Positions 9,069-59,085 of a stretch of 64,000 nucleotides of DNA are shown here, one piece after another. The notes beneath the pieces are model-generated. The model was not told the DNA's origin. It did no database searches and was given only the letters and a program-made list of their open reading frames with translations. The position numbers and the translations under genes are program-made. The DNA comes from Marivirga tractuosa DSM 4126 (GTDB lineage Bacteria; Bacteroidota; Bacteroidia; Cytophagales; Cyclobacteriaceae). The DNA lies in the NCBI RefSeq assembly GCF_000183425.1, contig NC_014759.1:1550001-1614000 (forward strand). The letters are read 5' to 3'. Within the stretch, counting starts at the first letter, position 1; each line of letters opens with the position of its first letter.

Positions 9069-9245
9069 ATAGTTTTAAGTTTTTCAAAAACTAAAATTAC
9101 ATGAAACCTTGAGTTCATCATAAAATTTCATCGAATATAAATATACTGATCAGATGCTTTTTAGGCTTTAAAATGGCTTATAGACAACTTTAGCTTAAAA
9201 TCTATAGAAATTTGTCGAATGAAAGACTTTATTAAGAGGAGAAAT

Positions 9246-41719: not shown

Positions 41720-41815
41720 AGAGAAAAAGAACTTAAAGAAGCTATAACCTCGATACAAAAGAAAAAGAATAAAACCATTACACAGAATCGCTGAATATAC
41801 AATAGCGATTTGAGT

Positions 41816-41912
41816 GCTAACTCAAGACATTTTTCAGTAAATTAATGTACATTGTAAGCTGAAAAGTAGTCGATTAAAATCCGATACCGCTCATATACAA
41901 GAACGTTATAGC
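41816..41912 (+). repeat. attC-like intergenic element
   Basis: Starts with GCTAAC (41816-41821) and ends with GTTATAGC (41905-41912). The right part, CATATACAAGAACGTTA, recurs almost identically at 54591-54607. A small ATCGCT/AGCGAT hairpin lies just upstream. No coding potential. Confidence 0.4.
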
Positions 41913-41977
41913 TAATTAAAAGAAAATCATAAATAACCAATGGCAATTAGCAGAAGCCAGATAAAGTATCGAAGGAG

Positions 41978-43802: not shown

Positions 43803-43946
43803 AAATATCACTTTTAAGTTCGGAATTACATTTCAGGACGATTCGTCTTCCTTTTCAATCCATCTTTGTATTATAAATTCGATAAAGCAGAGTTGATAAT
43901 CATAAAAGGAAGTGCTTTACAGAAATCGAATTTCTAAAAAATGCAC
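43803..43946 (+). promoter_or_regulatory. duplicated upstream region of the decayed barrel gene
   Basis: This segment matches 48241-48400 upstream of the intact barrel gene, including a 25-bp identical run beginning AAATATCACTTTTAAG at 43803 (48241 in the other copy). It continues with near-identical sequence for about 100 bp. The -7-like CATCTTTG at 43862-43869 may be the ancestral promoter. Confidence 0.5.
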
Positions 43947-44095
43947 ATGAAAAAAGCATTATTAACCTTGACTTTGCGCGGACTATTTTTGCTCGCCAAA
44001 TCTCAAGACACAAGTGTTGAATAATCAACGTTCGGAGTACAAACCGGAGTTTTAGGAATCTGATTTTATAATGAAGTAAAACTGCCAAAAAACAT
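43947..44095 (+). pseudogene. decayed copy of the outer-membrane protein gene at 48426
   Basis: From ATG at 43947 the frame reads MKKALLTLTLRGLFLLAKSQ, matching MKRTLLILTLCGLTLIAKSQ of the intact gene. It continues DTSVE-stop-STFGVQTGVLGI-stop-FYNEVKL. Gln is replaced by TAA and Trp by TGA at positions conserved in the intact copy. Similarity fades after about 44095, so about 130 codons of the C-terminus are lost. Confidence 0.8.
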
Positions 44096-44180
44096 TAGTG
44101 ATATAAGTGATATAGCAGAAATTCTGTTATCCTGATGTTAAGTGCAAGCAGGAAGAAAAAACCATAATAAGAAAAACTGA

Positions 44181-44717: not shown

Positions 44718-45293
44718 ATGAAAGAAGCTGAAGAAATTTGTCCAAGTAGTAGAGAAGAGTGGAGAGACTGGCTCGAATTGAATCATAAAGAAAAGGATGC
44801 CGTTTGGTTGGTTTTTTATAAAAAAAGCACTCCTAATTTCAATCTCAGTTGGAGTGATTCTGTTGACGAATCTCTTTGCTTTGGTTGGATTGACAGCACT
44901 AAAAAGACAATAGATGATGAGCGATTCATACAATATTTTAGTAAAAGAAGGCCGAAAAGTAATTGGTCAAAAGTGAATAAGGATAAAGTAAAAAACTTAA
45001 TTGACCAGGGACTTATGAAAGATGCTGGCTTTAAAAGCATTGAAGTCGCAAAAAAAAATGGCTCGTGGACAATTCTAGATACTGTTGAAAGGCTAGAGAT
45101 ACCTGAAGACCTAGAACGAGAACTAAGAAGAAAGAAAGGAGCACTGCAATACTTTGAAAGTCTAAATAAGTCTTCTAAAAAGGGATTTCTATACTGGGTT
45201 GCTTCGGCTAAGAGAGATAACACAAGAAATAAACGAATTTCGGAAATCGTTGAAAACGCGAGTGTACAGATGAAACCAAAACAGTTTAGATAA
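44718..45293 (+). CDS. YdeI/OmpD-associated (bacteriocin-protection) family protein
   Basis: A 191-residue cytoplasmic protein. The N-terminal block ICPSSREEWRDWLELNHKEK, VWLVFYKKST, ESLCFGWIDSTKKTIDDERF, then RRPKSNWSKVNKDKV is the hallmark of the YdeI/OmdA family. The C-terminal helix bundle includes FESLNKSSKKGFLYWVASAK and the RISEIVENA motif. Members are reported to help cells tolerate antimicrobial peptides in some species; the mechanism is unknown. Transcribed with the AAA-type kinase upstream. An AAAACGGC-starting hairpin element begins at its stop codon. Confidence 0.88.
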   Translation: MKEAEEICPSSREEWRDWLELNHKEKDAVWLVFYKKSTPNFNLSWSDSVDESLCFGWIDSTKKTIDDERFIQYFSKRRPKSNWSKVNKDKVKNLIDQGLMKDAGFKSIEVAKKNGSWTILDTVERLEIPEDLERELRRKKGALQYFESLNKSSKKGFLYWVASAKRDNTRNKRISEIVENASVQMKPKQFR

Positions 45294-45362
45294 AACGGCT
45301 TACAATAATAAGCATACGAAATACTCTTTTAGCCACCGCGCTTGAGACTAACCTGTGATGAA
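45294..45362 (+). repeat. degenerate attC-like intergenic element
   Basis: Begins AAACGGC directly at the YdeI stop codon and contains a small GCTTA/TAAGC hairpin (45299-45314). The expected right-hand CGTT end is not present, so it is incomplete. Included because it shares its left end with the elements at 45916, 46762 and 59041. Confidence 0.3.
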
Positions 45363-45381
45363 ATTTTAATGAAATAAAAAA

Positions 45382-45879
45382 ATGAGGATAAATATGAAAC
45401 CAGCAGTTGTAAAAAGCCTTTCTGAAACAAAGGTTGAGGTAATAAGAAGATTTGATTCATCAGTAGAATCTGTCTGGAAACCTTTCACCAATTCAAGCTT
45501 GGTTAGTCAATGGATGCTTGGCCCTCCTGGATGGTCAATGCCGGTTTGCGAAATAGATTTTCGAATCGGTGGTAATTATAGGAACGTTTTTCGAAATGAA
45601 GTAGAAGGCTTAGAAATCGACATTACAGGTGCCTTTCGTAAAATCGCAACACATCAAAAGATAGTTCAAGACGAGCAGCATAAGATTGGAAGTTCGAAAG
45701 GAGGAATCACAAAAAGTACTGTAGTCACCTTAACTTTTGAATCAGTAAACGAAGGTACCAACGTTAGAACATTGATTGAATATGGTTCCAAAAAGGAACG
45801 TGATGAAGCCTTAGCAACTGGGACGGGTGCTGCAATGGAAATGGGTTACTGTCGCATCGATGAGCTCTTGCTTAATTAA
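45382..45879 (+). CDS. SRPBCC / AHSA1-family protein
   Basis: A 165-residue START-like protein. The block VEVIRRFDSSVESVWKPFTN, SQWMLGPPGWSMPVCEIDFRIGG and the C-terminal AAMEMGYCRIDELL match the AHSA1 (Aha1-like) SRPBCC family, which has a hydrophobic ligand pocket. The start could be ATG 45382 or ATG 45394; a GAGGA sequence before the latter makes MKPAVVK a possible N-terminus. No conserved partner nearby. It is bounded by hairpin elements on both sides, as expected for a mobile cassette, though this is inference. Confidence 0.85.
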   Translation: MRINMKPAVVKSLSETKVEVIRRFDSSVESVWKPFTNSSLVSQWMLGPPGWSMPVCEIDFRIGGNYRNVFRNEVEGLEIDITGAFRKIATHQKIVQDEQHKIGSSKGGITKSTVVTLTFESVNEGTNVRTLIEYGSKKERDEALATGTGAAMEMGYCRIDELLLN

Positions 45880-45915
45880 TATTGTCAACAAAAAATATCA
45901 AAATGAATAAAATAA

Positions 45916-45996
45916 AAACGGCATAAAACGGGGTGTATAGTGGATAGTCCCCTGCGGGATGCTAGGACACCATGTACTAAACGTTGTGTGCCATCA
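45916..45996 (+). repeat. attC-like intergenic hairpin element
   Basis: Left box GGCATAAAAC (45920-45929) and right box GTTGTGTGCC (45983-45992) are inverted repeats differing at two positions. Nested inside are GGTGT/ACACC and CCC-CTGC-GGG arms. The whole folds into one long imperfect hairpin. It lies 36 bp after the SRPBCC stop codon. Confidence 0.55.
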
Positions 45997-46065
45997 GTGC
46001 AAAACTGCAACGAGTACCTTATTACATCTTCAGAATTAGTATAAAACATTGAAAACAAATAATTT

Positions 46066-46752
46066 ATGGTAGGAAATACAGAACAAAAACAATTGATTAA
46101 AACTGCAAGGATAACTGGTGCTTGGTATTTAATGATGGCTATTTCAGGGATTTTAGGTTTTATGGTCTTTCATTCTCAAATATTTGTGTCTGGTAACCCT
46201 GAACAAACGCTAACGAATTTAATAGAGTTAGAATCTACTGTAAGAATTAGGCTGCTTTTAGAGTTTGCCATTGTAATATCTCAAGCCCTTACCGCTATTT
46301 GGTTTTATAAATTATTTAAAGATAGTTATGAATGGGAAGCTTGGACTCTAGGTATATGGGGAATGGTGAATGCTTTAGCCATTATGATAAGTGCAATTTC
46401 AATCGCCTCTGCTTTAGGTGTTGCTAATTCTGACATAGGTGCTATGGAAGACAAAGTTTTACTAATTCAGGGCTTTCAAAATATAATTTCAAATGCTTGG
46501 GGTATTGGTGGTCTATTCTTTGGACTTTGGCTATTTCCTATGGGATGCATAGTCATCAAATCAAAAAGAATGCCTGTCTGGTTAGGAAGAATTATTGTTT
46601 TAGGTGGTATTGGCTATCTAATTAGCACCCTTATCCACTACGCAGGAATTGATTTTAGCTTCAATAATTTTCTAACTCTACCCGCAACCATTGGAGAATT
46701 TTGGATGATAGGTTATTTACTAATTTTTGGCATAAGACCTATGAACGAGTAA
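46066..46752 (+). CDS. DUF4386-family membrane protein
   Basis: A 228-residue polytopic protein with about six helices. The start KTARITGAWYLMMAISGILG, the glycine/alanine-rich helices, and the late FFGLWLFPMGCIVIKSKRMP followed by LIHYAGIDF fit the DUF4386 family, which has no known function. It lies between two hairpin elements (45916-45996 and 46762-46828). A related-looking but distinct membrane protein is encoded at 54746-55411. Confidence 0.85.
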   Translation: MVGNTEQKQLIKTARITGAWYLMMAISGILGFMVFHSQIFVSGNPEQTLTNLIELESTVRIRLLLEFAIVISQALTAIWFYKLFKDSYEWEAWTLGIWGMVNALAIMISAISIASALGVANSDIGAMEDKVLLIQGFQNIISNAWGIGGLFFGLWLFPMGCIVIKSKRMPVWLGRIIVLGGIGYLISTLIHYAGIDFSFNNFLTLPATIGEFWMIGYLLIFGIRPMNE

Positions 46753-46761
46753 AAGTTAATT

Positions 46762-46828
46762 AAAACGGCACAGAACAAAACCTATACGCAATGCCCTTCG
46801 GGACAGTGCGAATATCTAAACCGTTGAA
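46762..46828 (+). repeat. attC-like intergenic hairpin element
   Basis: Outer arms AACGG (46764-46768) and CCGTT (46821-46825) are perfect inverted repeats. The centre is a CGC...CCC-TTC-GGG...GCG hairpin. It begins 10 bp after the DUF4386 stop and ends just before the next start. Confidence 0.55.
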
Positions 46829-46837
46829 AGATATAGA

Positions 46838-47245
46838 ATGAAAATAATGAACACAAAAATAGTAATGATTTCAAGTTGTTTTTTTTTAGGTGCTCTAGGA
46901 ATCACTTTCACGTTTATACCTGATGAAATTATCTCAAGTCTGAGCGCAACACCAAACCCAATATCAATTTTGTCACTACAATTATTAGGTGCACTTTATC
47001 TCGGATTCACAATGTTGAATTGGATGGCAAAAGGATCTCTAATTGGCGGCATTTACAATAGGCCTATCGCTATTGGGAATTTCATGCATTTTGCAGTTGG
47101 AGCATTAGCTCTAATTAAAATAATTACTAAAATTCATACCCATTCAGAAATAGTTATTTCGTTAACTGCAGTCTATTTCGTTTTCGCAATACTGTTTGGT
47201 TATGTCTTTATAAATAATCCATCCAGAATAGATAAGAAATCTTAA
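46838..47245 (+). CDS. small four-helix membrane protein
   Basis: A 135-residue membrane protein with four predicted helices (about 7-27, 42-63, 72-96 and 104-126). Blocks such as LQLLGALYLGFTMLNWMAKG and NFMHFAVGALALIK are conserved in a Bacteroidota family of unknown function that I cannot name. ATG at 46838 or 46847 are both possible. The next gene begins 5 bp downstream, so the two are co-transcribed. Confidence 0.7.
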   Translation: MKIMNTKIVMISSCFFLGALGITFTFIPDEIISSLSATPNPISILSLQLLGALYLGFTMLNWMAKGSLIGGIYNRPIAIGNFMHFAVGALALIKIITKIHTHSEIVISLTAVYFVFAILFGYVFINNPSRIDKKS

Positions 47246-47250
47246 AAATT

Positions 47251-47702
47251 ATGACACTAAAAAACGCAATTAACTTTTTTGAAAGTTTAGAAGCTGAGAC
47301 AAATCGTAAATCTGAGAAAAAGGTTTACCAAGAATTTGTTCAAATTATAACTAGTTTACAAAAGAAAGATTTACCTGAAAGTGATATTCAATCTATAGAA
47401 ACAGAATTAGATAATTTTAATCTAAAATCAAACTCTGTAAACAGAAAAAATATTATAAAAAAGCGATTAATGATTTTAAAAAATATTTAAAAGACGCATT
47501 TTCCTTAACTACAAAAGGGTATTACACAACTTTATATGGTGGCCTAGGATTAGTATTTGGTTTACTATTTGGAGTTGCGATTTTATCTAATTTAGAACGC
47601 TCAATAGGAGTTTCTCTAGGTTTAATTGGTGGAATGGTCATTGGTTCACTTATGGGGCGAGGCAAAGATGCTCAAGCTAAAATCTCTGGAAAGATGCTCT
47701 AA
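47251..47702 (+). CDS. small membrane protein interrupted by a -1 frameshift
   Basis: The zero frame from ATG 47251 gives 79 residues, ending LMILKNI at 47490. At 47445-47451 there is A-AAA-AAT; reading -1 from there gives RKKYYKKAINDFKKYLKDAF and an open frame to TAA 47700-47702. That adds two glycine-rich membrane helices (LGLVFGLLFGVAIL and LIGGMVIGSLMGRG). The combined product, about 150 residues (soluble helical N-terminus, two glycine-zipper helices), matches the architecture I know for this marine Bacteroidota family. Either a base was lost in the A-run, or the heptamer allows ribosomal slippage, or the sequence has a homopolymer error. Co-transcribed with the preceding membrane gene. 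Confidence 0.65.
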
Positions 47703-47730
47703 CTTATAGATGAATACACAACCTAAGTTA

Positions 47731-47760
47731 CGGAAGTCTGAACAAAACGGCAGGCTTCCG
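47731..47760. repeat. intergenic hairpin / attC-like remnant
   Basis: CGGAAGTCTG (47731-47740) pairs with CAGGCTTCCG (47751-47760) with one wobble, around a 10-base loop containing AAAACGG. A CGTTCAAC sequence follows at 47781-47788. No T-run, so not a standard terminator. Confidence 0.4.
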
Positions 47761-47819
47761 CCCTCTGACGGATTCGTTCAACAATGTATTCTATGTAAAG
47801 CCATAATAGTTCCAGCCAG

Positions 47820-48222
47820 CCATCAAGGGAGGATTTGTCCGAAGTCATAGAAAGTCAAAAAACAGAAACCTTGATCACCCTCACAAGAAAACTGAGGAAG
47901 AAAATACAAGCTTATGTGAAATCATAGCGACCGTACCCCTACCCTTCTCTTACTTTACATGCTATAGCCTAGCAAGTAGCTATCCACCCTAATCAGCATT
48001 CATGTATATTGAATGAATCTATTAGCAACAACTTCAACAAGTTTATCAATAAAAAGCGCATTGAACATTTCAAAAGCTAGTCTTGGATTCGGACAATTCA
48101 CACATTTGCTTGATTGGGTTGGCCTACGTAAGTGGTTTTAACCCTAAGAGAGTCTTCAATACTACATTCAAAAAAACCAAGCAATGACACCCAGAGCCTG
48201 GGTGAAGACCAATCAAACTTAA
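47820..48222 (+). pseudogene. decayed C-terminus of a TolB-TPR-AraC regulator
   Basis: Translating in three successive frames recovers the AraC domain of the intact regulator at 41978. First 47820-48074: TLTRKLRKKIQAYVKS, stop, then YPSLTLHAIA, stop, QVAIHPNQ and NFNKFINKKRIEHFK. Then 48077-48178: LVLDSDNSHICLIGLAY, VSGFNPKRVFNTTFKK. Then 48181-48222: AMTPRAWVKTNQT and stop. There are at least two in-frame stops and two frameshifts. The N-terminal TolB/TPR part is absent from the upstream DNA (47703-47819 shows nothing recognisable). Confidence 0.8.
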
Positions 48223-48240
48223 GCCAGTTTAAAAAGTACC

Positions 48241-48400
48241 AAATATCACTTTTAAGTTCGGAATTTCATTTTAGGACGATTCAGCTTCCTTTTCACTCCA
48301 TCTTTACATTATCAAATCGATAAAGCAAAGTGAAGAATCATTAGATGATTCATTTCCCCTTTAAAAAAATGGACTAATAATAAGGGGAGATACTTTGTGA
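48241..48400 (+). promoter_or_regulatory. duplicated upstream region of the intact barrel gene
   Basis: Counterpart of 43803-43946: 25 identical bases at its start, then long near-identity. It presumably contains the promoter of the following gene, since both copies conserve it while adjoining coding regions have decayed. Confidence 0.45.
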
Positions 48401-48425
48401 AAATAGGAATTTAAAAAATGAAATT

Positions 48426-48992
48426 ATGAAAAGGACATTATTAATCTTGACATTGTGCGGACTAACTTTAATTGCCAAGTCTCAAAATACTAGCGTTGAA
48501 CAATCAACATTCGGACTACAAACTGGAGTTTTAGGAATCTGGGCATATAATGAAGTGAAACTTTCAAATAGCATTGCACTGAGAACAGAGCTTGGATTTG
48601 ATTTTGGTATCTGGGAAACTACTTATTATGATGATTATAACTCTCCGTTTATCCTCACCCCTGTAATAGTTGTTGAGCCAAGGTTTTATTACAATCTCAA
48701 AAAACGCTCAAAGAATTCGAAAAGAATTGATGGAAACAGTGGCAATTTTATTGCCTTAAAAACTAGTTATCATCCCGATTTAGCCCTGTTCAATACTGAC
48801 GATGCTCCGGTAGTAAGTGATTTCGCTATTATACCTACATGGGGAATTAGAAGAAATTTAGGGGAGCATTTCAATTATGAAGCAGGTATCGGAATAGGAT
48901 ACAGTTTCACATTTGCTAAGCGCGCAGGTTATTCTGAAGACAAAGGTGGACTAGAACCAAATATGCATTTGCGCATAGGGTATAAATTCTAA
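48426..48992 (+). CDS. outer-membrane beta-barrel protein (intact copy)
   Basis: A 188-residue exported protein: signal peptide about 1-19 (ends LIAKSQ). The mature part has alternating amphipathic strands (STFGLQTGVLGIWAYNEVKL, SIALRTELGFDFGIWE, HLRIGYKF) and ends in Phe, typical of small outer-membrane barrels. It is the intact counterpart of the pseudogene at 43947, with the upstream region also conserved. A decayed AraC/TPR regulator precedes it. Function unknown. Confidence 0.82.
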   Translation: MKRTLLILTLCGLTLIAKSQNTSVEQSTFGLQTGVLGIWAYNEVKLSNSIALRTELGFDFGIWETTYYDDYNSPFILTPVIVVEPRFYYNLKKRSKNSKRIDGNSGNFIALKTSYHPDLALFNTDDAPVVSDFAIIPTWGIRRNLGEHFNYEAGIGIGYSFTFAKRAGYSEDKGGLEPNMHLRIGYKF

Positions 48993-49061
48993 CATAAGCA
49001 ACAGTGATTCTCAATACTTACTGCCTAAAGTAGGGAGAGATTTATAACAAACAATATACAC

Positions 49062-51440
49062 ATGAAATTTAGAATTTTAATTTTGATACTTTTCTGCACA
49101 TCCCAATTACATGCCCAGATATATACTATCAGTGGCTATGTAAAGGATCTTAGTTCGGGAGAAGTATTGATAGGAGCAACAGTGGTTGATAAGAACCAGC
49201 CTAGTATAGGAATGGCTGCCAATATATACGGTTATTATTCCTTTGAATTACCTAAAGGAGAGTATACGCTGAAAGCAAGCTATGTTGGGTATGCAATGAA
49301 AGAAGTAACTGTAAACCTAACAGAAGATATTTCAATAAATTTTAGTTTGGAAGAGGAAGCTTCAACATTGGAAGAAGTAGTAGTTTCTGCAACGCGAAGT
49401 GATGAAAATGTCAGTTCAGTAAAAATGAGCACTGAAAAACTTCAAATTCAAAGGATTAAATCAATACCTGCTCTTCTTGGTGAAGTCGATATCATTAAAA
49501 GTTTACAATTATTACCGGGCATTTCTACCTCTGGGGAAGGTACTTCCGGCATGTTTGTAAGAGGAGGCAGTGCTGACCAAAATCTAATATTGCTAGACGA
49601 AGCTACCATATATAATGCCAGCCACTTGCTTGGCTTCTTTTCTGTTTTCAATCCCGATGCAATAAAGAATGTAGAGATTTATAAAGGTGGAATCCCTGCG
49701 AAATATGGAGGTCGAATTTCTTCCATATTAGACATTCAAATGAGAGAAGGAAATAATAAAAAATTCCAAGCATCTGGAGGGATTGGTAGTATCAGCAGCA
49801 GATTGACAGCTGAAATTCCTGTTGTAAAAGATAAGTCTTCTTTGCTTTTATCGGGAAGAAGAACTTATGCCGATATATTCCTAAATTTTCACCCAGATAA
49901 AGACGTGAGTACTAGCACGCTCTATTTCTATGATTTCAATACGAAATTTAACTACAGGTTCAGCGATAAGGATAAAATTTTCGTTTCTGGTTATTTTGGT
50001 CGCGATAAATTGGGTCTCGGAGATTTATTCGGTTTTGACTGGGGTAATACCACTTTTTCTACCCGTTGGAATCATCTTTTCAATGAAAAATTATTTCTAA
50101 ATACTACTTTACTCTACAGTGATTTCGACTATGGGTTCGACATAAGTTCTGCGGGTTCAGGCTTCAATTGGAATTCAGGCTTAAAAGAGTACAACCTAAA
50201 ACTTGACTTCGATTATTTTCTAAATAATAATAACACATTGTTTTTTGGTGCTAATGTTATAAACCATGTATTTGCTCCTGCTGAAATCAAATCGGAAGAT
50301 TTCAATGTTCAGGACTTCAGTCTCCAAAATGATTATGCATTAGAAACAGCACTTTATGTGAGTAATCAGCACACGATCAATGATAAATTGAGTCTGGAAT
50401 ATGGTGTTCGGTATTCCTCATTTGCAAAAATTGGCCCCGATTCGGTATCTATTTATGAAGAAGGTCTAAGAAAGAGTGCTGAGAATCAAATAGGAACTGA
50501 GGTTTTTGACGAAGGTCAGCTCGTTCAACATTATGGTGGATTTGAGCCGAGATTAGGAATTAGGTATATGGTTAATTCCAAGTCTAGTTTGAAAGCTTCT
50601 TACAATAGAATGCGTCAATATTTGCAAGTGGCAACAAACGCAACTGCCGGTTTTCCCACCGATCGATGGATCCCTGCTGATTATCATATCAAACCTGTAA
50701 TTGGCGATCAAGTCGCGGTGGGTTATTTCAGAAATCTCAAAAATAATAAATGGGAAATCTCAGTGGAAGGTTACTATAAATGGCTTCAAAATGTGGTAGA
50801 TTTTCTTCCTGGAGAAGACGTTTTACTAAATGACAGAATAGAGACCGCAGTAGCAGATGGAATTGCTTGGTCCTATGGAGCGGAGTTCATGTTGAAGAAA
50901 AATGTCGGTAAAACAACAGGCTGGCTAAGTTATACTCTTTCAAGAACTCAAAGACAAATTGAAGGTGTTGCAAGCGGAGACCCTTATTTAGCTCGCTACG
51001 ATAAGCCGCACGATATTTCATTAGTTCTATCGCATAAGTTTTCTGAGCGCTTATCTTTCTCTGGAAATTGGATATATGCAACAGGTGCTGCTGTTTCATT
51101 TCCAGAGGGAAGATACAACATGAATGGACAGAGCATTCCTTTTTATGATGATAGTAAAAGAAATACTAGTAGGATGCCTGACTTTCACCGCATGGATTTA
51201 GGGCTAACATATCAATTGAATAGCAGGTGGAAGCATTACAATCATGAGCTTACATTTTCATTTTATAATGTGTATAACCACCAAAACCCCTTTTCAATAG
51301 AATTTAGAGAAGTCACTAATGAAAATCCAAGGTTTGATCCAACGCAAGATGGACCGGTAACCAGTACTAGACCAGCCGCAGTGAGAACTTCATTATTTGG
51401 AATTATTCCTTCCGTAACCTATAATTTTTCTTTTAACTAA
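49062..51440 (+). CDS. TonB-dependent receptor with carboxypeptidase-like regulatory domain
   Basis: A 792-residue outer-membrane receptor: signal peptide 1-18 (ends LHAQ). A regulatory beta-sandwich covers about 20-100 (SGYVKDLSSGEVLIGATV). The plug follows TLEEVVVSATRSDENVSSVK (about 101-120), with a GGSADQNLILLDEATIYNAS block and GGIPAKYGGRISSILDI. The barrel fills the rest to the C-terminal VTYNFSFN. It is coupled by a 1-bp overlap to a DUF4249 lipoprotein gene, the usual pairing of this receptor group, which may import peptides or metal complexes; the ligand is unknown. Confidence 0.93.
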   Translation: MKFRILILILFCTSQLHAQIYTISGYVKDLSSGEVLIGATVVDKNQPSIGMAANIYGYYSFELPKGEYTLKASYVGYAMKEVTVNLTEDISINFSLEEEASTLEEVVVSATRSDENVSSVKMSTEKLQIQRIKSIPALLGEVDIIKSLQLLPGISTSGEGTSGMFVRGGSADQNLILLDEATIYNASHLLGFFSVFNPDAIKNVEIYKGGIPAKYGGRISSILDIQMREGNNKKFQASGGIGSISSRLTAEIPVVKDKSSLLLSGRRTYADIFLNFHPDKDVSTSTLYFYDFNTKFNYRFSDKDKIFVSGYFGRDKLGLGDLFGFDWGNTTFSTRWNHLFNEKLFLNTTLLYSDFDYGFDISSAGSGFNWNSGLKEYNLKLDFDYFLNNNNTLFFGANVINHVFAPAEIKSEDFNVQDFSLQNDYALETALYVSNQHTINDKLSLEYGVRYSSFAKIGPDSVSIYEEGLRKSAENQIGTEVFDEGQLVQHYGGFEPRLGIRYMVNSKSSLKASYNRMRQYLQVATNATAGFPTDRWIPADYHIKPVIGDQVAVGYFRNLKNNKWEISVEGYYKWLQNVVDFLPGEDVLLNDRIETAVADGIAWSYGAEFMLKKNVGKTTGWLSYTLSRTQRQIEGVASGDPYLARYDKPHDISLVLSHKFSERLSFSGNWIYATGAAVSFPEGRYNMNGQSIPFYDDSKRNTSRMPDFHRMDLGLTYQLNSRWKHYNHELTFSFYNVYNHQNPFSIEFREVTNENPRFDPTQDGPVTSTRPAAVRTSLFGIIPSVTYNFSFN

Positions 51441-52303
51441 TGAGAGCAAATAGAAATAAAATATTGAGTGTACTTTTTGCAGTTCTACTTAATTGGAGCT
51501 GCCAAAACATTATTGATTTGGACTTAGAGCAATCTGACACCAGGTTAGTAATTGAAGGCGAAATCCTTGATAAAAACACGATTAAGCGAATCAGAGTATC
51601 GCAAAGTTTAAATTATTATGATACTGGTAGAATGAGCCCAGTTACAGATGCTGATATCAGTTTGCTAGATGAAAATGATAATCTGATTAGTAGCTTTTTT
51701 TATAATAGCCAGGATAGCATCTATCAAACACCCGATTCCTTGACTTTGGATGTTGGATCAGCGTATAAAATTCAAATAGAAGCGAATGAAGAATTACTGG
51801 AAGCAACAGGAAAAATCTTAGAAAACCCCACTGTAGACTCAATTTATTATTTGTCTGATCAAGAGCTGATGGAATTGGGACAGCCAGTATTCGAAGAGGG
51901 TTATTTTCTGTTTGTAAATGGTAAACTGAATAATGAGGGTGTGGAGTATTTTAAATTAGATATTTCGGTAAATGATACACTTCAAAACTCAAGAGACGAT
52001 ATTTCGAATTCAATTTTGTCTTCTGAGTTATTTGGAAAGGAATTTCAAGGACTGCCCATTCCTGGTTCTTTTGAAGAAGAAGATGAAATCTTTTTAGAAT
52101 TTTACGCCATAGAAGAAGATGTTTACCAATACTATTTAGAATTCACCAATCTACTTTTTAATGACGGGGGCGTATTCAGTGCACCACCGGTGAATCCTTC
52201 AACGAATATTAATAATCTCACAAATCCTGAAAATAAACCATTGGGCTTTATTCAGTTTAGTTCAGTACAAACGAGAAGTATTATGATTAAGAAAGTGGAG
52301 TAA
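51440..52303 (+). CDS. DUF4249 surface lipoprotein
   Basis: A 287-residue lipoprotein with lipobox LNWSC (Cys at about 21), followed by QNIIDLDLEQSDTRLVIEGE, then RIRVSQSLNYYD and VTDADISLLDENDN, the N-terminal pattern of DUF4249 proteins. The family occurs next to small TonB receptors and is thought to act as their surface partner, by analogy to SusD. Here the ATG overlaps the receptor stop (TAATG), supporting a joint complex in the outer membrane. Confidence 0.88.
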   Translation: MRANRNKILSVLFAVLLNWSCQNIIDLDLEQSDTRLVIEGEILDKNTIKRIRVSQSLNYYDTGRMSPVTDADISLLDENDNLISSFFYNSQDSIYQTPDSLTLDVGSAYKIQIEANEELLEATGKILENPTVDSIYYLSDQELMELGQPVFEEGYFLFVNGKLNNEGVEYFKLDISVNDTLQNSRDDISNSILSSELFGKEFQGLPIPGSFEEEDEIFLEFYAIEEDVYQYYLEFTNLLFNDGGVFSAPPVNPSTNINNLTNPENKPLGFIQFSSVQTRSIMIKKVE

Positions 52304-52488
52304 ATGCATTTTAGTTTAATACATACCAATCGAGTAGAAAAATACTGATTAAAATGAATAGAAAAGTAGGTTGCAATAAATAATTCAGAATAATTACAGT
52401 TTTTTTAGCTCAATTGATTTGAATTATCAGCATACTAAACTAAAAAACAACTAGTCAATAGTAAACAATAAATAAACAAAAATTAAAC

Positions 52489-52857
52489 ATGAAAAATCGA
52501 TCAATTCTATTTAGCTCAGTAGCTTTGTTGTTCATCCTTAGCTCGTGCGGTGTCAGTCATTCCTTTATGCTGAACCAGAACCAAAACACTACCCAGGTAC
52601 ATCTTGGCAGTAATAATTTCAGTGTGGTAGAAAAAGTAAGCGGTACCTCTGAAGTATCATATGTTCTGGCCTTTGGAGGGCTTAACAAAAGGCGACTGTA
52701 CCAAGATGCTTACAGTGCGATGGTAAAGGATGCTAATTTGACTGGCTCGAAGGCCTTAATAAATATTGTGACCGAAGAACATATTGGTGGGTTTCCTCCA
52801 TTTTTCACGAAACGAACACTCACTGTAAGTGCCAACGTGGTTGAATTTACAGATTGA
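52489..52857 (+). CDS. DUF6567-family lipoprotein
   Basis: A 122-residue lipoprotein: lipobox LSSCG (Cys at about 20). The mature sequence NQNTTQVHLGSNNFSVVEKV, then GLNKRRLYQDAYSAMVKDA and KRTLTVSANVVEFTD matches DUF6567, a small Bacteroidota family without known function. It stands alone, 185 bp after the DUF4249 gene, in AT-rich DNA. Confidence 0.82.
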   Translation: MKNRSILFSSVALLFILSSCGVSHSFMLNQNQNTTQVHLGSNNFSVVEKVSGTSEVSYVLAFGGLNKRRLYQDAYSAMVKDANLTGSKALINIVTEEHIGGFPPFFTKRTLTVSANVVEFTD

Positions 52858-53225
52858 CGACTAAACAGATAATGTCTCAGCTTGAAAGTATAACTATTAT
52901 AGCTATCAGTAATTGCTTGTTCTCGCCTTGTTTGGAAATCCTTGCAGAATTTTCAACTGGGTGTGTACTTGCAGATTTAAGTACAAAACCACGCTACTGC
53001 TCATAGCAGAGATCGGTAGCAGGCAAATAGGTTAATGACTTATATTAATTCAAAAACAACCTTCTAAAAAAGTGAAATAGCGGTAGACCTAGTCGATGAA
53101 GTACTTGTGGTTAATGTTTATATTACATTTACTAACTTGTTAGCCTTCATTATAAACAACTAATAACCAATATAATTTTTATTTTAACGTATGTATTTAG
53201 TCCTATTTAAATTCAAAAGAAATTA
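52858..53225. other. gene-free interval
   Basis: 368 bp without coding potential. It contains a small nested hairpin (GCTAC 52993-52997 with GTAGC 53016-53020, and CTGCT/AGCAG inside) and CTAACTTGTTAG near 53133-53144, which looks like fused attC box halves. No promoter box is convincing. Confidence 0.4.
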
Positions 53226-54476
53226 ATGAAACATTACATCTACTTATTAGTACTTATCGGATCGATTTTAATGGTCAATCAACCTGCAATTGCACAAACA
53301 ACTGAGTCCCAAACAGAGCAATTTCAAAATCGAATAGTGGATTCCATATTTTCTAAAACTTTAGGTGAAAGTCGTGACTTTTGGGTAAGATTACCAGATA
53401 ATTTTCAGCCAGATAATGATGAAAAATACGCCGTGATTTATCTAATGGATGGATTTTCACTAGAAAGCACTTTGGAAGCTGTTTATGGTAATTATTGGGG
53501 GCATTACCTACCACATATGATACTTGTTGGGGTTTCTAATCGCAAGAACCGAACAAGAGATTTAACTACTTCGCAGATAAAAATGAGACGCGGCAGTGCA
53601 TTTGATTATGAAACTGGAGGTGCAGAAACCTTTACTAAATTTATGGAAGAGGAACTCATCCCATATATTGATAGTAAGTATCCAACTATAGCCTACCGTA
53701 CATTAATTGGTCATTCCCATGCAGGGCAGTTTACCATAAATATGTTGGTTAACCATGCACATCTCTTTGAAAATTATATAGCCATAGATCCAACTTTGGA
53801 TTGGGACAACCAAAAATTATTAAAGCAAGCTAAAGAAAAATTTAAAATGGAAGATTACAATGGGAAATCGCTTTTTGTTTCACTTGCTGCAGAGATGTTA
53901 CATATACAAAATGAAAGTATAACTATTGATAATGTAATGAGTGACACTTCAGAATTCTCATTGCCTGCACGTTCTATAATAGAATTCTCCCAACTTGCGA
54001 AGAGCCAAAATCAATTAAACTTTTCAAGGAAGGTTTATCATGAGGATTTACATGGTACTGTGCCTCTACCAACAATAAGAGATGGGCTGATTTTTCTTTT
54101 TCAATGGTATCAGTTCAAATCTCCTCAAAAATTTAATAATCCAGAGACACCTATAGAAGAATTGGTTTCGCTATTGAAGGAGCAGGAACAAATCTATACC
54201 GAACATTTTGGTGTTCCCACTGCACCAATGGTAGACGAAATGTTAAATGGTTACGGCTATATGAATATGCAAATGGGACAGCCTGAAAAAGCTTTCATGT
54301 TTTTTGAAATGAACATTAAACAAAATCCAAATAGTGCAAATGCCTATGATTCGATGGCTGAGTATTATGAATCTCAAAACGACAAAGAGAATGCCTTAAA
54401 ATACTTAAACAAGGCCTTTGAATTAAGTGGTAAAGATTACTATAAAGAAAGAATTGAAGCACTAAATAAAAAATAA
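53226..54476 (+). CDS. secreted alpha/beta-hydrolase esterase (IroE/PF00756-like) with C-terminal TPR
   Basis: A 416-residue exported protein: signal peptide about 1-24 (ends AIAQ). The esterase domain (about 30-310) has YAVIYLMDG, nucleophile Ser in LIGHSHAGQF (about 160-169), FENYIAIDPTLDWDN and catalytic His in YHEDLHGTVPLPT (about 273-285). A TPR-like tail spans about 335-410 (AFMFFEMNIKQNPNSANAYD). The family hydrolyses siderophore esters or similar acyl esters. A paralogue lies at 56912-58084 and a relic at 41502-41719. Transcribed alone; an attC-like element follows 4 bp after the stop. Confidence 0.88.
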   Translation: MKHYIYLLVLIGSILMVNQPAIAQTTESQTEQFQNRIVDSIFSKTLGESRDFWVRLPDNFQPDNDEKYAVIYLMDGFSLESTLEAVYGNYWGHYLPHMILVGVSNRKNRTRDLTTSQIKMRRGSAFDYETGGAETFTKFMEEELIPYIDSKYPTIAYRTLIGHSHAGQFTINMLVNHAHLFENYIAIDPTLDWDNQKLLKQAKEKFKMEDYNGKSLFVSLAAEMLHIQNESITIDNVMSDTSEFSLPARSIIEFSQLAKSQNQLNFSRKVYHEDLHGTVPLPTIRDGLIFLFQWYQFKSPQKFNNPETPIEELVSLLKEQEQIYTEHFGVPTAPMVDEMLNGYGYMNMQMGQPEKAFMFFEMNIKQNPNSANAYDSMAEYYESQNDKENALKYLNKAFELSGKDYYKERIEALNKK

Positions 54477-54479
54477 CGA

Positions 54480-54611
54480 AAGGCTAACAACGTATATAAA
54501 AATAGTAGTTTATTCGCTTAAATAAATGAATATCAATAAATTATAGGTCATTTAAAACTGAAAAAATAGTGCGTAAAACCCGCTACTTTTCATATACAAG
54601 AACATTAGGCC
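54480..54611 (+). repeat. attC-like intergenic element
   Basis: Outer boxes GGCTAAC (54482-54488) and ATTAGGCC (54604-54611). Inner arms GTATATAAAAATAGTAG (54492-54508) and CTACTTTTCATATAC (54583-54597) are inverted repeats with two gaps. The right side is nearly identical to 41891-41908. Starts 4 bp after the esterase stop codon. Confidence 0.6.
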
Positions 54612-54745
54612 AAAAGAGCACTGCGCTTATATCTAATAACTAGAGGTTAAAGGCAATAATTGCGTTTATTCAATTGTTAGCAAACATTAAGCAAAATGCA
54701 GTAGCAAAATAGTTTCTGAATTTTTTTACTCAAAAAACAAAAAAT

Positions 54746-55411
54746 ATGAATGAAAAAGAACTACAAAAAATAGGTGGGGCTTGCGCAATTTTTGAGGGAC
54801 TTATATATATCGTTGCCTTTATTATTTACGGAGCTATACTAGTATATCCAGATGCTACTGCCAGTGCAAATGAAAGACTTAACTTCCTAACAGAGAATCA
54901 CCTGACTTTTTCATTATTGACTTTTACCAGCTATATTTTATTTGGGATAGTATTGGTAGTATTGGTTATTGCAATCCACCATCGATTAAAAACTTATTCA
55001 CTAATTAGTTCACAACTAACATCTGTTTTTGGTGTAATTTGGGCTGGGTTGGTTATTGCAGGTGGGATGATAGATAATATAAGTCTCAACGCTATCATTG
55101 AAATGGGAAGTAAAGAGCCTGAAAATGCAATGTTAGTTTTTTCCGCTACTAATATCATTACAGAAGGGCTTGGTGGTGGAAATGAAATAGTTGGAGGAAT
55201 TTGGGTATTATTATTAAGTCTAGCTGCCTTGAAAGGGCATTTGTTTTCTAAACCACTAATTTTTTTGGGTATTCTAGTTGGAGTAGCAGGAATATTAACA
55301 ATTTATCCATTAGATATTTTTACAGAGGTTTTTGGAATTGGTCAAATATTTTGGTTTTTATGGATTGGAATATTTATGATACGAAATCCATTGATAGAAA
55401 AGACTAATTAA
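54746..55411 (+). CDS. six-helix membrane protein (DUF4386-like)
   Basis: A 221-residue polytopic protein with about six helices. Blocks IGGACAIFEGLIYIVAFIIY at the start, a long conserved loop TNIITEGLGGGNEIVGGIWV, and LIFLGILVGVAGILTIYPLD near the end resemble DUF4386-type proteins but the match is weaker than for 46066-46752. No function known. An attC-like hairpin begins at its stop codon. Confidence 0.72.
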   Translation: MNEKELQKIGGACAIFEGLIYIVAFIIYGAILVYPDATASANERLNFLTENHLTFSLLTFTSYILFGIVLVVLVIAIHHRLKTYSLISSQLTSVFGVIWAGLVIAGGMIDNISLNAIIEMGSKEPENAMLVFSATNIITEGLGGGNEIVGGIWVLLLSLAALKGHLFSKPLIFLGILVGVAGILTIYPLDIFTEVFGIGQIFWFLWIGIFMIRNPLIEKTN

Positions 55412-55485
55412 AACGTTTGCTATCACTATATATGAAATCATGGCTCCCTTTCGGTCGTTACGCTTCATATACTCACCGTTGGCAT
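55407..55485 (+). repeat. attC-like intergenic hairpin element
   Basis: AAAACG at 55411-55416 and CCGTTGGCA near 55476-55484 bound a hairpin whose inner arms TATATGAA (55429-55436) and TTCATATA (55464-55471) are perfectly inverted. A CCTTTCGG turn lies at the centre. It overlaps an open frame upstream of the serine hydrolase but is noncoding by its structure. Confidence 0.55.
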
Positions 55486-55500
55486 TTATTAAAACGAACT

Positions 55501-56565
55501 ATGAGAATCAGTTTAATATTATTTGTATCATCCATTTTATTAAGCTGTTCTAGTGAAGCTCAAATTTATCCAGACATAAATTGGGCAACTCATCAAAATC
55601 CGGTGGAAGCAGGTTGGGGTGATGCAGATAGTAGAACTTTCACTCGCTATATAATTGATAGCACCTATATTACTGGACTGGTCATTATTCATAAAGGACA
55701 GGTTGTACTTGAATTCGGGGATTTAGAAGAAAACAGCTATATCGCATCATGTAGAAAAAGTGTATTGGCTATTCTTTATGGGAAATATGTGGAAAATGGA
55801 GTCATTGACCTTGATAAGTCACTTAAAGAATTGAAAATTGAAGACCATACTCCATTTCTTGAACTTGAACAATCAGCAACTATCAAAGACTTAATATCAG
55901 CACGTTCAGGAGTTTTCTTACCTGGCTCAAATGGTGGTGATTTCAGAAGACTTGCACCTGAAAGAGGATCTGTTAAACCCGGTAGTTATTGGCTATACAG
56001 TAATTGGGATTTTAATTTGGCCGGATATATTTTCGAACAAGAAACGAATCGAAATATCTATGATGAAATAGAGGCACAGTTAGTAGAACCTCTTGAAATG
56101 CAAGACTGGGATAGATCTTTGCAAATAAAAAATGGAAATCTGGAAGTGTCGAAGTTTCCAGCCTATCATATATGGTTATCGACAAGAGATATGGCTCGTT
56201 TAGGTTTGTTGATGTTGAGAAAAGGTAAGTGGAAAGAAAAGCAAGTTGTACCACAGAATTGGGTAGAGGAAATGATTACTCAAAGAACCTCCCATCTTGA
56301 AGCCCAGAAAAATGCCCCTGTTCTAAAAGAAGACGGCCTTGATCTTGGATATGGGTATATGTGGTGGTTAATAGAAAACACAGAAGACTCTAGGCTAAAA
56401 AATGCTTATTCAGCTCAAGGTGCATTAGGACAAAACATTACTGTATATCCAGAAATAGATGTTGTTCTAGCTTTTAAAACAAAAAGCGATTATAGACGGA
56501 GAAATAGCATTCAAACACAAATGAATGTGATAAGAAAGGCGGTTGAAATCTACAATCCTAATTAA
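55501..56565 (+). CDS. serine hydrolase (class C beta-lactamase-like) lipoprotein
   Basis: A 354-residue protein. The frame is open from 55417, but residues encoded there come from the hairpin element; the ATG at 55501 gives a proper lipoprotein signal, MRISLILFVSSILLSCSS (lipobox LLSC). Active-site SxxK is SCRK in YIASCRKSVLAILYG; YxN is YSN in WLYSNWDFNLAG. The third motif region is around SAQGALGQNITVYPE. Such proteins are esterases or peptidases of the penicillin-binding fold. Two further serine hydrolases occur in the window (39911, 61843). Confidence 0.87.
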   Translation: MRISLILFVSSILLSCSSEAQIYPDINWATHQNPVEAGWGDADSRTFTRYIIDSTYITGLVIIHKGQVVLEFGDLEENSYIASCRKSVLAILYGKYVENGVIDLDKSLKELKIEDHTPFLELEQSATIKDLISARSGVFLPGSNGGDFRRLAPERGSVKPGSYWLYSNWDFNLAGYIFEQETNRNIYDEIEAQLVEPLEMQDWDRSLQIKNGNLEVSKFPAYHIWLSTRDMARLGLLMLRKGKWKEKQVVPQNWVEEMITQRTSHLEAQKNAPVLKEDGLDLGYGYMWWLIENTEDSRLKNAYSAQGALGQNITVYPEIDVVLAFKTKSDYRRRNSIQTQMNVIRKAVEIYNPN

Positions 56566-56585
56566 AAAATAACCCTAAGACTATT

Positions 56586-56866
56586 ATGAAAATAGTAAAT
56601 TACATAATCATTTTAAGCATATTTATACTAGCCTCTTGTAATCAACCAAAAAGCAAAATAGTGATTTTACGAAAGCTGCTAAAAAGGCCGAGATTGATAC
56701 AGAGGAACTAATGGCCATGCTGGATACCATTTGGAGGACTGAACAGGAACCTATTCGACTGAGGGATTCTCTGGGCAAAGTATATGGTTATGAATCAGAA
56801 GAATTTCTGAAGCAAAATGAAATATACCATAGAAACCATGATATAAACGAAAAGAAAATACTTTAA
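56586..56866 (+). pseudogene. frameshifted, truncated DUF6624-like lipoprotein gene
   Basis: ATG 56586 begins MKIVNYIIILSIFILASCNQ, a good lipoprotein signal, then the frame is lost after NQPKSK. A second frame continues NSDFTKAAKKAEIDTEELMA, then MLDTIWRTEQEPIRLRDSLG and EEFLKQNEIYHRNH to a TAA at 56864. The second part matches the DUF6624 pattern (helix with a charged D/E-Q core). The protein would be about 92 residues, about half the family length, stopping just at the conserved KIL. So one frameshift and a C-terminal loss. Confidence 0.7.
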
Positions 56867-56911
56867 CTTTTGTAAAGTATGTGCCTTTACAATCATATAA
56901 AAATAAACAAA

Positions 56912-58084
56912 ATGAATAAAAATATCATTGCAGTACTACTTTTACTAATAGGTATTAATCAGGTAAAATCACAAGATGCTGGACAAATTGTAATCGGCAC
57001 AAAACATTCACTTAGGTCTAATATCTTGAATGAAGATAGAGCGTATTGGGTTAGTATTCCTGATTCATACCATGATAAAGCATCATCCCACAAGAGATAC
57101 CCAGTGATTATTGTACTTGATGGAAACTCGCACTTTAAGCCCATAGCAGGAATCGTAAACTACATGAGTTCTGATGCGTATAGAAGCTTGACAATTCCAG
57201 AAATGATTGTGGTGGGTATTCAAAATGTTGATAGAAGAAGAGACTACACGCCAGACAAAGTCATTACAGTTAGAAAGAATAATACAGGTGGCGGAGATAG
57301 CTTTCTGAGTTTTTTGGAAGAGGAACTTATACCTGAACTAGATCAAAAGTTTAGGACTAGTCCATATAGAATGCTTTTTGGACATTCCTTAGGAGGTTTG
57401 TTGGCCACTCATACCTATATGAAAGAAAAGACAGTTTTCAATTCATTTATTGCAGTTGACCCAAGTTTTGGGACGTGGGATTCAGAAACCATGGACAAAA
57501 AATTAGATTCAATGACAGAACGACCATTTGAAAGATTTATCTACATTGCTACTGCTAATTGGGGTAAAAGGAATATCAGAAATCGTGATCGGCATGTACG
57601 GTTATATGAAGCATTGAATAGCAAATGCAAAGGCGAATTGCCTGCAAAATTAGAATACTTTGATAATGAAGACCATAGCTCAGTTCCAATCATTGCTTTT
57701 CATAATGGAATCTCTGCAATTTTTAAAGGCTATGGGATTTCCTATCGTGATGTGAAAGATAAAGATCAACTAACTAGGCATTTTCAAACACTTTCTAAGC
57801 GACTTTCATGGGACTTCCAACCTCCTGAATATCTTGTAAACCAATTAGGTTACAGAATGATACGAAGTGGAAATGATGAAGACAAAGCCAAGGCATTAGA
57901 ATTCTTCACATTGAATGTAGAAAACTACCCTAAATCATCTAATTCCTATGATAGTCTGGGAGAAGCTTATGAAATATTAGGTGATACTCAAAAAGCCATC
58001 GCAAATTATGAAAAATCTCTTGAGCTAAACCCTAGTAATGAACACGCCAGAGTGAAAATAAAAGAATTAAGCAAGATAAAATAA
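56912..58084 (+). CDS. secreted alpha/beta-hydrolase esterase (IroE/PF00756-like) with TPR
   Basis: A 390-residue exported protein. I take ATG 56912 as start because it gives a normal signal peptide (MNKNIIAVLLLLIGINQVKS) whereas the upstream ATG 56879 adds a polar leader. Esterase domain: YPVIIVLDGNSHF, nucleophile Ser in LFGHSLGGLLAT (about 155-166), FIAVDPSFGTWD and His in FDNEDHSSVPI (about 250-260). TPR motif near the end (AIANYEKSLELNPSNEHARV). Paralogue of 53226-54476 with the same domain order. A hairpin element follows its stop. Confidence 0.88.
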   Translation: MNKNIIAVLLLLIGINQVKSQDAGQIVIGTKHSLRSNILNEDRAYWVSIPDSYHDKASSHKRYPVIIVLDGNSHFKPIAGIVNYMSSDAYRSLTIPEMIVVGIQNVDRRRDYTPDKVITVRKNNTGGGDSFLSFLEEELIPELDQKFRTSPYRMLFGHSLGGLLATHTYMKEKTVFNSFIAVDPSFGTWDSETMDKKLDSMTERPFERFIYIATANWGKRNIRNRDRHVRLYEALNSKCKGELPAKLEYFDNEDHSSVPIIAFHNGISAIFKGYGISYRDVKDKDQLTRHFQTLSKRLSWDFQPPEYLVNQLGYRMIRSGNDEDKAKALEFFTLNVENYPKSSNSYDSLGEAYEILGDTQKAIANYEKSLELNPSNEHARVKIKELSKIK

Positions 58085-58091
58085 ATACGAT

Positions 58092-58131
58092 TGGTAACAT
58101 CCGCTTTAGCAAATGCGGGATAACGTGTGAA
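58092..58131 (+). repeat. attC-like intergenic hairpin element
   Basis: ATCCGC (58099-58104) pairs with GCGGGAT (58115-58121, one bulge). GGTAAC at 58093-58098 and AACGTGTG at 58123-58130 flank it. Short version of the other elements, 8 bp after the esterase stop. Confidence 0.4.
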
Positions 58132-58168
58132 AGTAATTGCAAAAAAAACAAACTAACCAGAAAAATAA

Positions 58169-59023
58169 ATGCTAGAAAATTTATCGGAACGTAAAGAAGC
58201 CTGGAAAACGATCTTTCTATTTCTCGCTCTCGTATTTGCGCTTACTTCACCTTTCCATTATGCCATTGTAAAATTATATCCATCGCGGATATATGTTGGA
58301 GCAATCATGTGGTGTCCTGCTATTGCTGCATTTATTACCTTAAAAATAAAAGGGCGTAAAATTTCATCTTTAAATTGGAATTGGGGAAATTGGAAATATA
58401 TCCGATGGTCTTATTTCATTCCTGCCATATATGGCTTAATCACTTATATACTAATCTGGAGTTTCGGATTTGGAAGTTTAGCCAATGAAGAAGTAATTAT
58501 AGACTGGGGAAAAGAACTTGGTTTGTTTGGAATAGGAACATTAAATCCAACGGCAATAACAATAATAGCCATTATTTTAATAGGTACTGTAGAAGTAATA
58601 AGAGCCTCAGCAACAACTTTAGGAGAAGAAATTGGGTGGAGAGGTTTTTTTATCTATGAATTGAGAAAGGTACTTTCATTTACTGGTGTATCTATTTTTA
58701 GTGGATTTATTTGGGCTGCTTGGCACTGGCCGCTGCTTGTTTACTATAGTAATAATGTGCTATTGGAATTTATAACATTCTTTATAGTAATTATTTCTAT
58801 GTCATTTATTATGACATACTACACTTTTAAATCTAAAAGCCTATGGCCAGCAGTAATTTTTCACGCAGTAAGCAATGTGTATATTCAAAAATTATTACCA
58901 CCTCTAACAATGAAAACTGTTGGAACTGAACATTGGCTTGGTGAAAACGGAATTATGTTTGCAATTGTGACTTGCGTTTTTGCAATTTACTTTTGGAGAA
59001 AAGCAATTAAAGATAAATTGTAA
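58169..59023 (+). CDS. CPBP-family intramembrane metalloprotease
   Basis: A 284-residue polytopic membrane protein with about eight helices. Catalytic motifs: GEEIGWRGFF (about 153-162), AAWHWPLL (second metal His near 190) and FHAVSNVYIQ. The tandem Glu and Arg are intact. This is the long CPBP type often annotated as Abi-like; a shorter, different member is at 34779-35516. It is bounded by hairpin elements on both sides. Target unknown. Confidence 0.88.
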   Translation: MLENLSERKEAWKTIFLFLALVFALTSPFHYAIVKLYPSRIYVGAIMWCPAIAAFITLKIKGRKISSLNWNWGNWKYIRWSYFIPAIYGLITYILIWSFGFGSLANEEVIIDWGKELGLFGIGTLNPTAITIIAIILIGTVEVIRASATTLGEEIGWRGFFIYELRKVLSFTGVSIFSGFIWAAWHWPLLVYYSNNVLLEFITFFIVIISMSFIMTYYTFKSKSLWPAVIFHAVSNVYIQKLLPPLTMKTVGTEHWLGENGIMFAIVTCVFAIYFWRKAIKDKL

Positions 59024-59040
59024 ATATAAAACATAGCGCA

Positions 59041-59085
59041 TTAAAACGCGCAATACATCAAACCGTTAATCGGCAAGCTGAGGAT
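59041..59085 (+). repeat. attC-like intergenic element (weak)
   Basis: AAAACG at 59043-59048 and CCGTTAATCGGC ending at 59073 form the left/right ends; a GCGC...GCGC pair lies at the left. Begins about 20 bp after the CPBP stop. Shorter and less regular than the elements at 45916 and 54480. Confidence 0.35.

Follow-up and report, generated by a model that had tools for sequence, protein, structure and literature searches.

A decayed, integrase-less cassette stretch in Marivirga tractuosa and its probable place in a Bacteroidota-type, non-IntI integron system

In the genome of Marivirga tractuosa DSM 4126 (Bacteroidota, Cyclobacteriaceae), a run of same-strand genes with unrelated functions is separated by short hairpin elements, and no integrase gene lies nearby. 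Are these elements the recombination sites of an integron, and if so, which recombinase do they belong to? We analyzed a window of 64,000 nucleotides (nt) (NC_014759.1, positions 1,550,001 to 1,614,000 of the forward strand; C2:1550001-1614000 of the 4.5 Mb genome), to which coordinates without a prefix refer. A first-pass annotation of the window had proposed an integron-like cassette array without a neighboring integrase, with elements resembling attC sites. The proposal held up: boxes of neighboring sites are complementary, shared sequences break at GTT, paired stem positions covary, and two window genes are shared with another class. We consider it very likely that the window holds a decayed, integrase-less stretch, similar to a cluster of attC sites lacking integron-integrases (CALIN), of a Bacteroidota-type integron system whose recombinase is not IntI.

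The sites occur in two forms, a long one of about 140 nt and a short one of about 80 nt. One covariance model (R1) was built from seven long forms, of which one row is the window site at 54477-54616 (the 54480 element), and a second (R2) from nine short forms of other genomes, none being from M. tractuosa. The phylum survey used R1, with eight candidates per genome scored. It recovered long-form sites at E 0.001 in 103 of 395 genomes; building new models from the elements and searching relatives with them had been suggested at first pass. Many of the sites lie in dense single-strand arrays, including 14 sites on a 9.6 kb contig (G583:C14) and 14 within 16 kb of G541:C18; two long arrays are present in G457. 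An exact 20-base pattern of the 54480 element occurs on five contigs of the genome collection, with near relatives in Flavobacteriia. Four of these contigs contain the whole element of about 140 nt (L050, L052, L053, L054), and the fifth, from a Nonlabens metagenome-assembled genome (L051), has four elements in 6 kb. A search of 241 order genomes for the pattern TTTTCATATACAAGAACGTTR with three mismatches was set aside as mostly noise, with control counts of the same order; it yielded one relative (L028).

M. tractuosa itself has just 12 listed sites in 4.5 Mb (five found with R1 and seven with R2, E <=7e-4), and five of the 12 are in the window, within 13.7 kb; searches of single stretches add a few more. 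Given these low numbers, the elements are not the abundant genome-wide repeats that the first-pass annotation had named as the alternative.

The supported sites of the window are all oriented like the genes, on the plus strand. Five of the eight elements listed in the first-pass annotation proved to be full sites. Three are short forms, at 45913-45995 (right box GTTGTGTGCC; R2 E 3.2e-7), 46760-46835 (left box GGCACAGAAC; R2 E 9.9e-6), and 55408-55490 (right box GTTGGCA; R2 E 1.1e-9); the left box GGCACAGAAC pairs at 9 of 10 bases with the preceding site's right box, GTTGTGTGCC. The other two are long forms. The site at 41777-41917 (right box GTTATAGC) has a degenerate left part and was found by R1 at E 3.8e-11, outside the training rows; it matches a site of an array in another class (L097 of genome G278) at 77.8% over 117 nt by blastn. 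In the site at 54477-54616 the GTT of the right box has become ATT (ATTAGGCC). Its R1 score of 112.7 bits is that of a training row, and independent support comes from a blastn match to an L097 site (78.7% over 122 nt, E 1.6e-17). This site gave no phage match, and among plasmids just one match of 41 nt (E 0.009).

A sixth listed element is a left half-site only (58086-58126), which shares 37 of 41 bases with an L097 site compared with 28 of 41 in the best of six control windows; hidden Markov models of the short left and right halves, which have low power, scored it below controls. The remaining two elements, at 45294 and 59041, gained no support from R1 (E <=1), R2 (E <=10) or the half-site comparison. 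A decayed long-form site at 52885-53027 had been missed. It aligns with an L097 site at 80.5% over 118 nt (blastn, E 2e-22), and in an ungapped comparison its halves match at 30 and 29 of 41 bases vs. control maxima of 28 and 30. Site spacing below 4 kb defines two groups in the window, 45913 with 46760, and 52885 with 54477 and 55408. Rfam at gathering scores has no family for the elements and found nothing in the window, and ARAGORN found nothing there either. On the opposite strand, 9021-9085 gave a weak and unconfirmed match to the short form (20.1 bits, E 0.03).

In an integron, the box at the start of a circular cassette pairs with the left box of the cassette's own site. The right box of one site should therefore match the left box of the next site in the array, and not the left box of its own. 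Of 211 sites, 184 have both the AAC and the GTT triplet close to where they are expected; the other 27, including both window sites in the set, were left out of the box analysis. For adjacent sites less than 4 kb apart, the right and left boxes agree in every one of the six bases flanking the triplets in 77 of 132 pairs (58%; this supersedes a smaller preceding sample, 47 of 83), and in 24 of 27 pairs with gaps below 600 nt. The same agreement is rare within one site (5/184), between non-adjacent sites of one locus (24/986), and between different loci (393/47536, 0.8%). A second array of M. tractuosa (L085) has a perfect box pair flanking an interval of 482 nt. Cassettes that obey the rule (n = 82) have a median length of 763 nt; the array strand carries their longest open reading frame in 73 cases and the opposite strand in 3, while 6 have none, and the distance from stop codon to AAC has a median of 14 nt. 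The consensus boxes of canonical integrons are GTTRRRY and RYYYAAC. Each is fitted by only 9 of the 184 sites, while 178 have GTTR, so that the deviation first noticed in the right boxes of the window holds across the whole family.

The ends of shared sequence point to the same place. In 20 pairs of sites the same cassette start (at least 25 nt, several at least 300 nt) stands behind different sites, and for 16 of them identity reaches no more than 3 nt upstream of the GTT. Conversely, 59 pairs have the same site (at least 60 nt upstream) before different cassettes, and identity ends 3-7 nt from the G in 54; in both sets the pairs share sites and are not independent. By analogy with integrons, where the place of the cut is known, these breaks can be read as recombination joints at GTT. 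In two arrays (L095, with sites at 4230, 4716 and 7474, and L167) one cassette start occurs two to three times behind different sites, which suggests recent copying.

The hairpin itself is poorly visible in single copies. The first-pass annotation had asked whether the elements fold better than shuffled sequence; when eight window stretches were folded as bottom strand, one reached a z of -2.6 and the rest lay between -1.2 and +0.9, so singly they hardly do, and the evidence for a hairpin comes from relatives. In an alignment made without reference to structure (A6), 97.3% of cells are paired and 11 of 22 pairs show double changes, a level that one of 500 shuffles and none of the slid versions attained, the structure having been drawn from the same rows. 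In another, aligned to the model (A3), 25 of 26 pairs covary. Of the 184 usable sites, all taken from outside the window, 148 are more stable as bottom strand and 14 as top strand; six of the seven elements of A2 likewise favor the bottom strand. The bottom strand usually folds best because it has G.T pairs at two stem positions (117 and 93 of 125 sites, respectively) where the top strand has A.C mismatches. The outer stem has no inserted base in 99 of 125 rows, in an alignment fitted to the model.

Which recombinase accompanies these sites? None is encoded in the window, where the best tblastn integrase piece has E 0.37; the absence of an integrase reported at first pass is thus correct for the window but not for the genome, which has two tyrosine recombinases of one family, neither of IntI type. 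The first (C2:2331701-2332810) has sites downstream and is 98% identical to a Marivirga protein, and the second (C2:133139-134263) has a site 3 kb downstream. Family membership was set at E 1e-70, a threshold chosen by eye on a two-peaked list, with five recombinase candidates scored per genome. Positions were typed for 70 listed recombinases from site-bearing genomes against the listed sites. A listed site is on the same contig in 32 cases, in 8 of them more than 10 kb away. Wherever a family recombinase has a listed site at most 10 kb away (24 cases), it stands at the head of the array, with the site on its array-downstream side. Of these, 18 read with the array, mostly in frames of 350-400 amino acids (aa) with an N-terminal domain (one has 502 aa and one is a 147 aa fragment); the other six are divergent from the array and have 280-335 aa. 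Across the phylum the family is present in 115 of 395 genomes, 60 of which also have sites (odds 6.0, p 2.6e-13). A recombinase of IntI type, which the first-pass annotation had suggested looking for in relatives, did not turn up among the 44 site-bearing genomes that belong to the window's class or are closer still (five candidates scored per genome): none has a canonical IntI over cut-off, and 35 have the non-IntI family.

The recombinases of this family lack the insertion of IntI. IntI4 (2a3v) aligns with the recombinase in two pieces, between which there are 68 IntI4 residues vs. 25 recombinase residues, and the inserted stretch is absent from the family and present in six canonical IntI proteins of the phylum. 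Both M. tractuosa proteins score just above the cut-off of NF040815 (220.8 and 230.5 vs. 220) and below that of TIGR02249 (187 and 206 bits vs. 265). An AlphaFold model (pLDDT 84.6, pTM 0.59) is predicted to be equally like XerA and IntI4, with 32-33% identity in structure alignments; the listed rows of VIA-align start near recombinase residue 95, and the gap before them does not speak for a new fold. With full tree support (100/100), the family stands apart from 11 Xer proteins encoded in the same set of genomes. In a recombinase tree 18 family members form one branch with a support of 81/81 only, long IntI and Xer branches meet, and three of the loci included (L108, L109, L117) are not known to adjoin a site. 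The C-termini mostly read SPLD, NPLD or SPFD, compared with SPVD in the canonical IntI proteins here and FHPR in Xer. The recombinase protein matched 525 plasmid records, at less than 60% identity.

Some relatives of the recombinase are in frames of 500-600 aa (G274:C65, G303:C4, G513:C8), beyond the usual length of both forms above. In an earlier tree, a recombinase associated with IS91 grouped toward the family, though its branch was very long. Downstream of the M. tractuosa integron, L085:15531-17503 (C2:2343530-2345502) contains a transposase-like gene (IS91-type by eye) and a companion tyrosine recombinase of 286 aa in which the letters EYLF of the integron family recur. In the same array, the interval L085:5759-8541 between two sites has a small HTH-like gene, an HNH-like gene and an N6-methylase-like gene on the opposite strand, judged by eye to be a set resembling restriction-modification.

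Two stretches of the window recur in genomes of another class. The first is a single-gene cassette at 45983-46786 (plus strand), which starts at the G of GTT, reaches into the next site and carries a DUF4386 gene at 46066-46752 (PF14329). It matches a 20 kb stretch of G423 (L226) in a single blastn block of 84.6% nucleotide identity that begins at the G of GTT and stops inside the next site. Behind the DUF4386 gene of G423 there is a left half-site, which agrees at 27 of 31 bases where each of five controls stays below 22. The DUF4386 protein is 87% identical to that of G423, whereas identity is 55-59% to three genomes from the family to which the window belongs, and it has a match at E 1e-10 in 32 of 395 genomes. 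The second is a truncated cassette at 56879-58126 (plus strand), which consists of an esterase-like gene (56879-58084) and the left half-site. Here 56890-58146 is 85% identical over 1263 nt to a gene and its site in the L097 array of G278, where a recombinase of the family is 2 kb away. The same G278 stretch also matches three more window sites and an OmdA/YdeI-like gene of the window.

Several observations weigh against assigning the window to such a system. The association between sites and recombinase is incomplete in both directions, since 43 of the 103 site-bearing genomes lack the family and 55 of the 115 genomes with the family have no listed sites, with eight site candidates and five recombinase candidates scored per genome. 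In 6 of 20 array genomes (G119, G376, G387, G397, G465, G581) the matches are at Xer level only; one of these, G397 (L094, L174, L175), has dense, long arrays, and its integrase was either lost, is missing from the assembly, or is of another kind. Within the window, 45913 and 46760 are the sole consecutive pair obeying the box rule; the other pairs are too decayed or without their neighbors. The bottom strand is more stable in just two of six window sites. Fifteen window genes were compared with 39 array loci (E 1e-4), and 10 have no homolog there and two others a weak one. Of 30 DUF4386 loci only that of the window has two strong sites, two others have one site within 1.5 kb, and one has a half-site; the DUF4386 family is thus not tied to cassettes. 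Recombination of the sites is itself something that we infer from these patterns.

It is quite improbable that the elements belong to canonical IntI integrons and that the window is an ordinary CALIN derived from one of them. Canonical integrons do exist in the wider phylum, as an IntI above the TIGR02249 cut-off is found in 105 of the 395 genomes and is common in other classes, and integrons have been reported in Bacteroidota (PMC8618304, PMC2426708). However, canonical IntI and sites occur together in only 18 genomes (odds 0.5, p 0.02); with five candidates scored per genome, none of these 18 is among the 44 with sites in the window's class. No R1 site up to E 1 lies around the six best canonical IntI genes, in loci that extend about 1.5 kb to either side, and a mere 9 of 184 sites fit GTTRRRY. 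We give very little weight to the idea that the host XerC/XerD proteins move the cassettes and that the recombinases at the array heads are unrelated passengers. In the structure alignments, archaeal XerA and IntI4 are equally close to the recombinase, and some site-bearing genomes lack the family, both of which would suit a role for Xer. Against this, nearby recombinases are at the array head in 24 of 24 cases, and the family separates from the Xer proteins of the same genomes and mostly has C-termini near the SPVD of IntI rather than the FHPR of Xer.

An origin of the hairpins as ordinary intergenic repeats or terminators behind stop codons deserves hardly any credence. In most cassettes the elements do lie 9-23 nt past the stop codon (10%-75% quantiles), and single window copies fold weakly. 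Yet complementarity between the boxes of neighbors, identity breaks at GTT and a recombinase heading the array are not what repeats or terminators predict, and the genome of M. tractuosa has just the 12 listed sites.

We therefore return to the reading of the window as part of a non-IntI integron system, for which a mechanism can be proposed. Each site is a long imperfect hairpin, of which the bottom strand would fold. A tyrosine recombinase without the IntI insertion most likely cuts at GTT and exchanges one strand, and a gene together with its site would be circularized and then inserted beside the recombinase gene or at another site. The choice of strand may stem from the two G.T pairs and not from extrahelical bases. 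In M. tractuosa the recombinase would act in trans from C2:2331701-2332810 or C2:133139-134263, one of these being the putative acting enzyme. At its distance from the recombinase loci, the window may represent either cassettes that were inserted here or an array that stayed behind; erosion would have followed, and the array is presumably inactive today. Erosion is indicated by one site without its right half, one with ATT for GTT, and the TonB receptor pair and other ordinary genes that lie between the sites; the pair had been judged unlikely cargo from the start, and its setting among ordinary genes agrees with this.

The system shares much with sedentary chromosomal integrons, namely arrays of single-gene cassettes in one orientation with a site behind the stop codon, hairpins with outer R and inner L arms, breaks at GTT, complementarity of boxes within a cassette, and a tyrosine recombinase at the array head. 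Its recombinase differs from IntI in the missing insertion (25 residues vs. 68 in IntI4) and in a long form with an extra N-terminal domain. Its sites differ from canonical attC in boxes made of GTTR plus a cassette-specific stretch instead of GTTRRRY, and in a stem that is mostly without inserted bases and has two conserved G.T pairs. The system probably works like an integron but lacks two textbook features, an IntI with the insertion and GTTRRRY boxes. The window resembles a CALIN in its sites of one orientation, less than 4 kb apart, and in the lack of an integrase, and differs in that its sites are of Bacteroidota type and partly decayed. Both M. tractuosa recombinases are just inside NF040815 (‘site-specific tyrosine recombinase/integron integrase’), the family of XerA-like recombinases. 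Archaeal XerA serves chromosome resolution, whereas the enzyme here adjoins cassette arrays and has an additional N-terminal domain.

Published work provides context for these comparisons. The CALIN rule requires attC sites less than 4 kb apart (PMC9668308), and specificity for the bottom strand with replicative resolution has been described for integrons (PMC8946536). A survey of complete genomes reported few integrons in Bacteroidetes, formerly as integrases without cassettes and then with a complete one in Salinibacter (IntegronFinder 2.0, PMC9024848), and none of the published taxon-specific attC models is for Bacteroidota (PMC8352920). In searches of open-licence papers we found no description of arrays like these, which is not proof of novelty. 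One imagined origin of integrons has a Xer-like ancestor gain an I2-like domain, which avoids a second strand exchange (PMC4792948), and the insertion is said to be incompletely conserved among integron-like recombinases (PMC8138268).

Other genes of the window, all on the plus strand, may be present or former cargo. The OmdA/YdeI-like gene at 44718-45293 (PF13376) is a likely former cassette; it has 71% aa identity to a gene on the G278 array contig stretch, where the nearest usable site is 3.4 kb away. On position, an AHSA1-like gene (45382-45879; PF08327) is directly upstream of a site; it has no homolog at E 1e-4 in the 39 array loci. Placement similarly suggests cassettes for a small membrane protein gene just behind a site (46838-47245), and for a membrane protein gene that spans the interval between two sites (54746-55411), neither with a Pfam match. 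A CPBP (Rce1-like) gene (58169-59023; PF02517) lies behind the half-site and is possible cargo by position. Behind the small membrane protein gene, 47252-47700 has interrupted open frames, by eye as if from a decayed gene. The stretches 43803-44096 and 48241-48575 are 81-85% alike in direct orientation, and the gene at 48426-48992 seems to have its beginning duplicated, in broken and truncated form, at 43947-44096.

Beyond the window, whether the Bacteroidota hold an integron lineage of their own, with arrays of more than 12 sites, strand choice by G.T pairs, and recombinases in which the I2 insertion, regarded as what makes integron recombination possible, was lost or never arose, is in our estimate evenly balanced. 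Such a lineage could be either a survivor of a step before IntI or an independent case of cassette capture from a Xer-like enzyme. If the system is as we propose, many Bacteroidota would hold a pool of cassettes that published attC models may miss. A working cassette system without the I2 insertion would also bear on the origin of integrons, and would make the proposal of a Xer-like ancestor directly testable.

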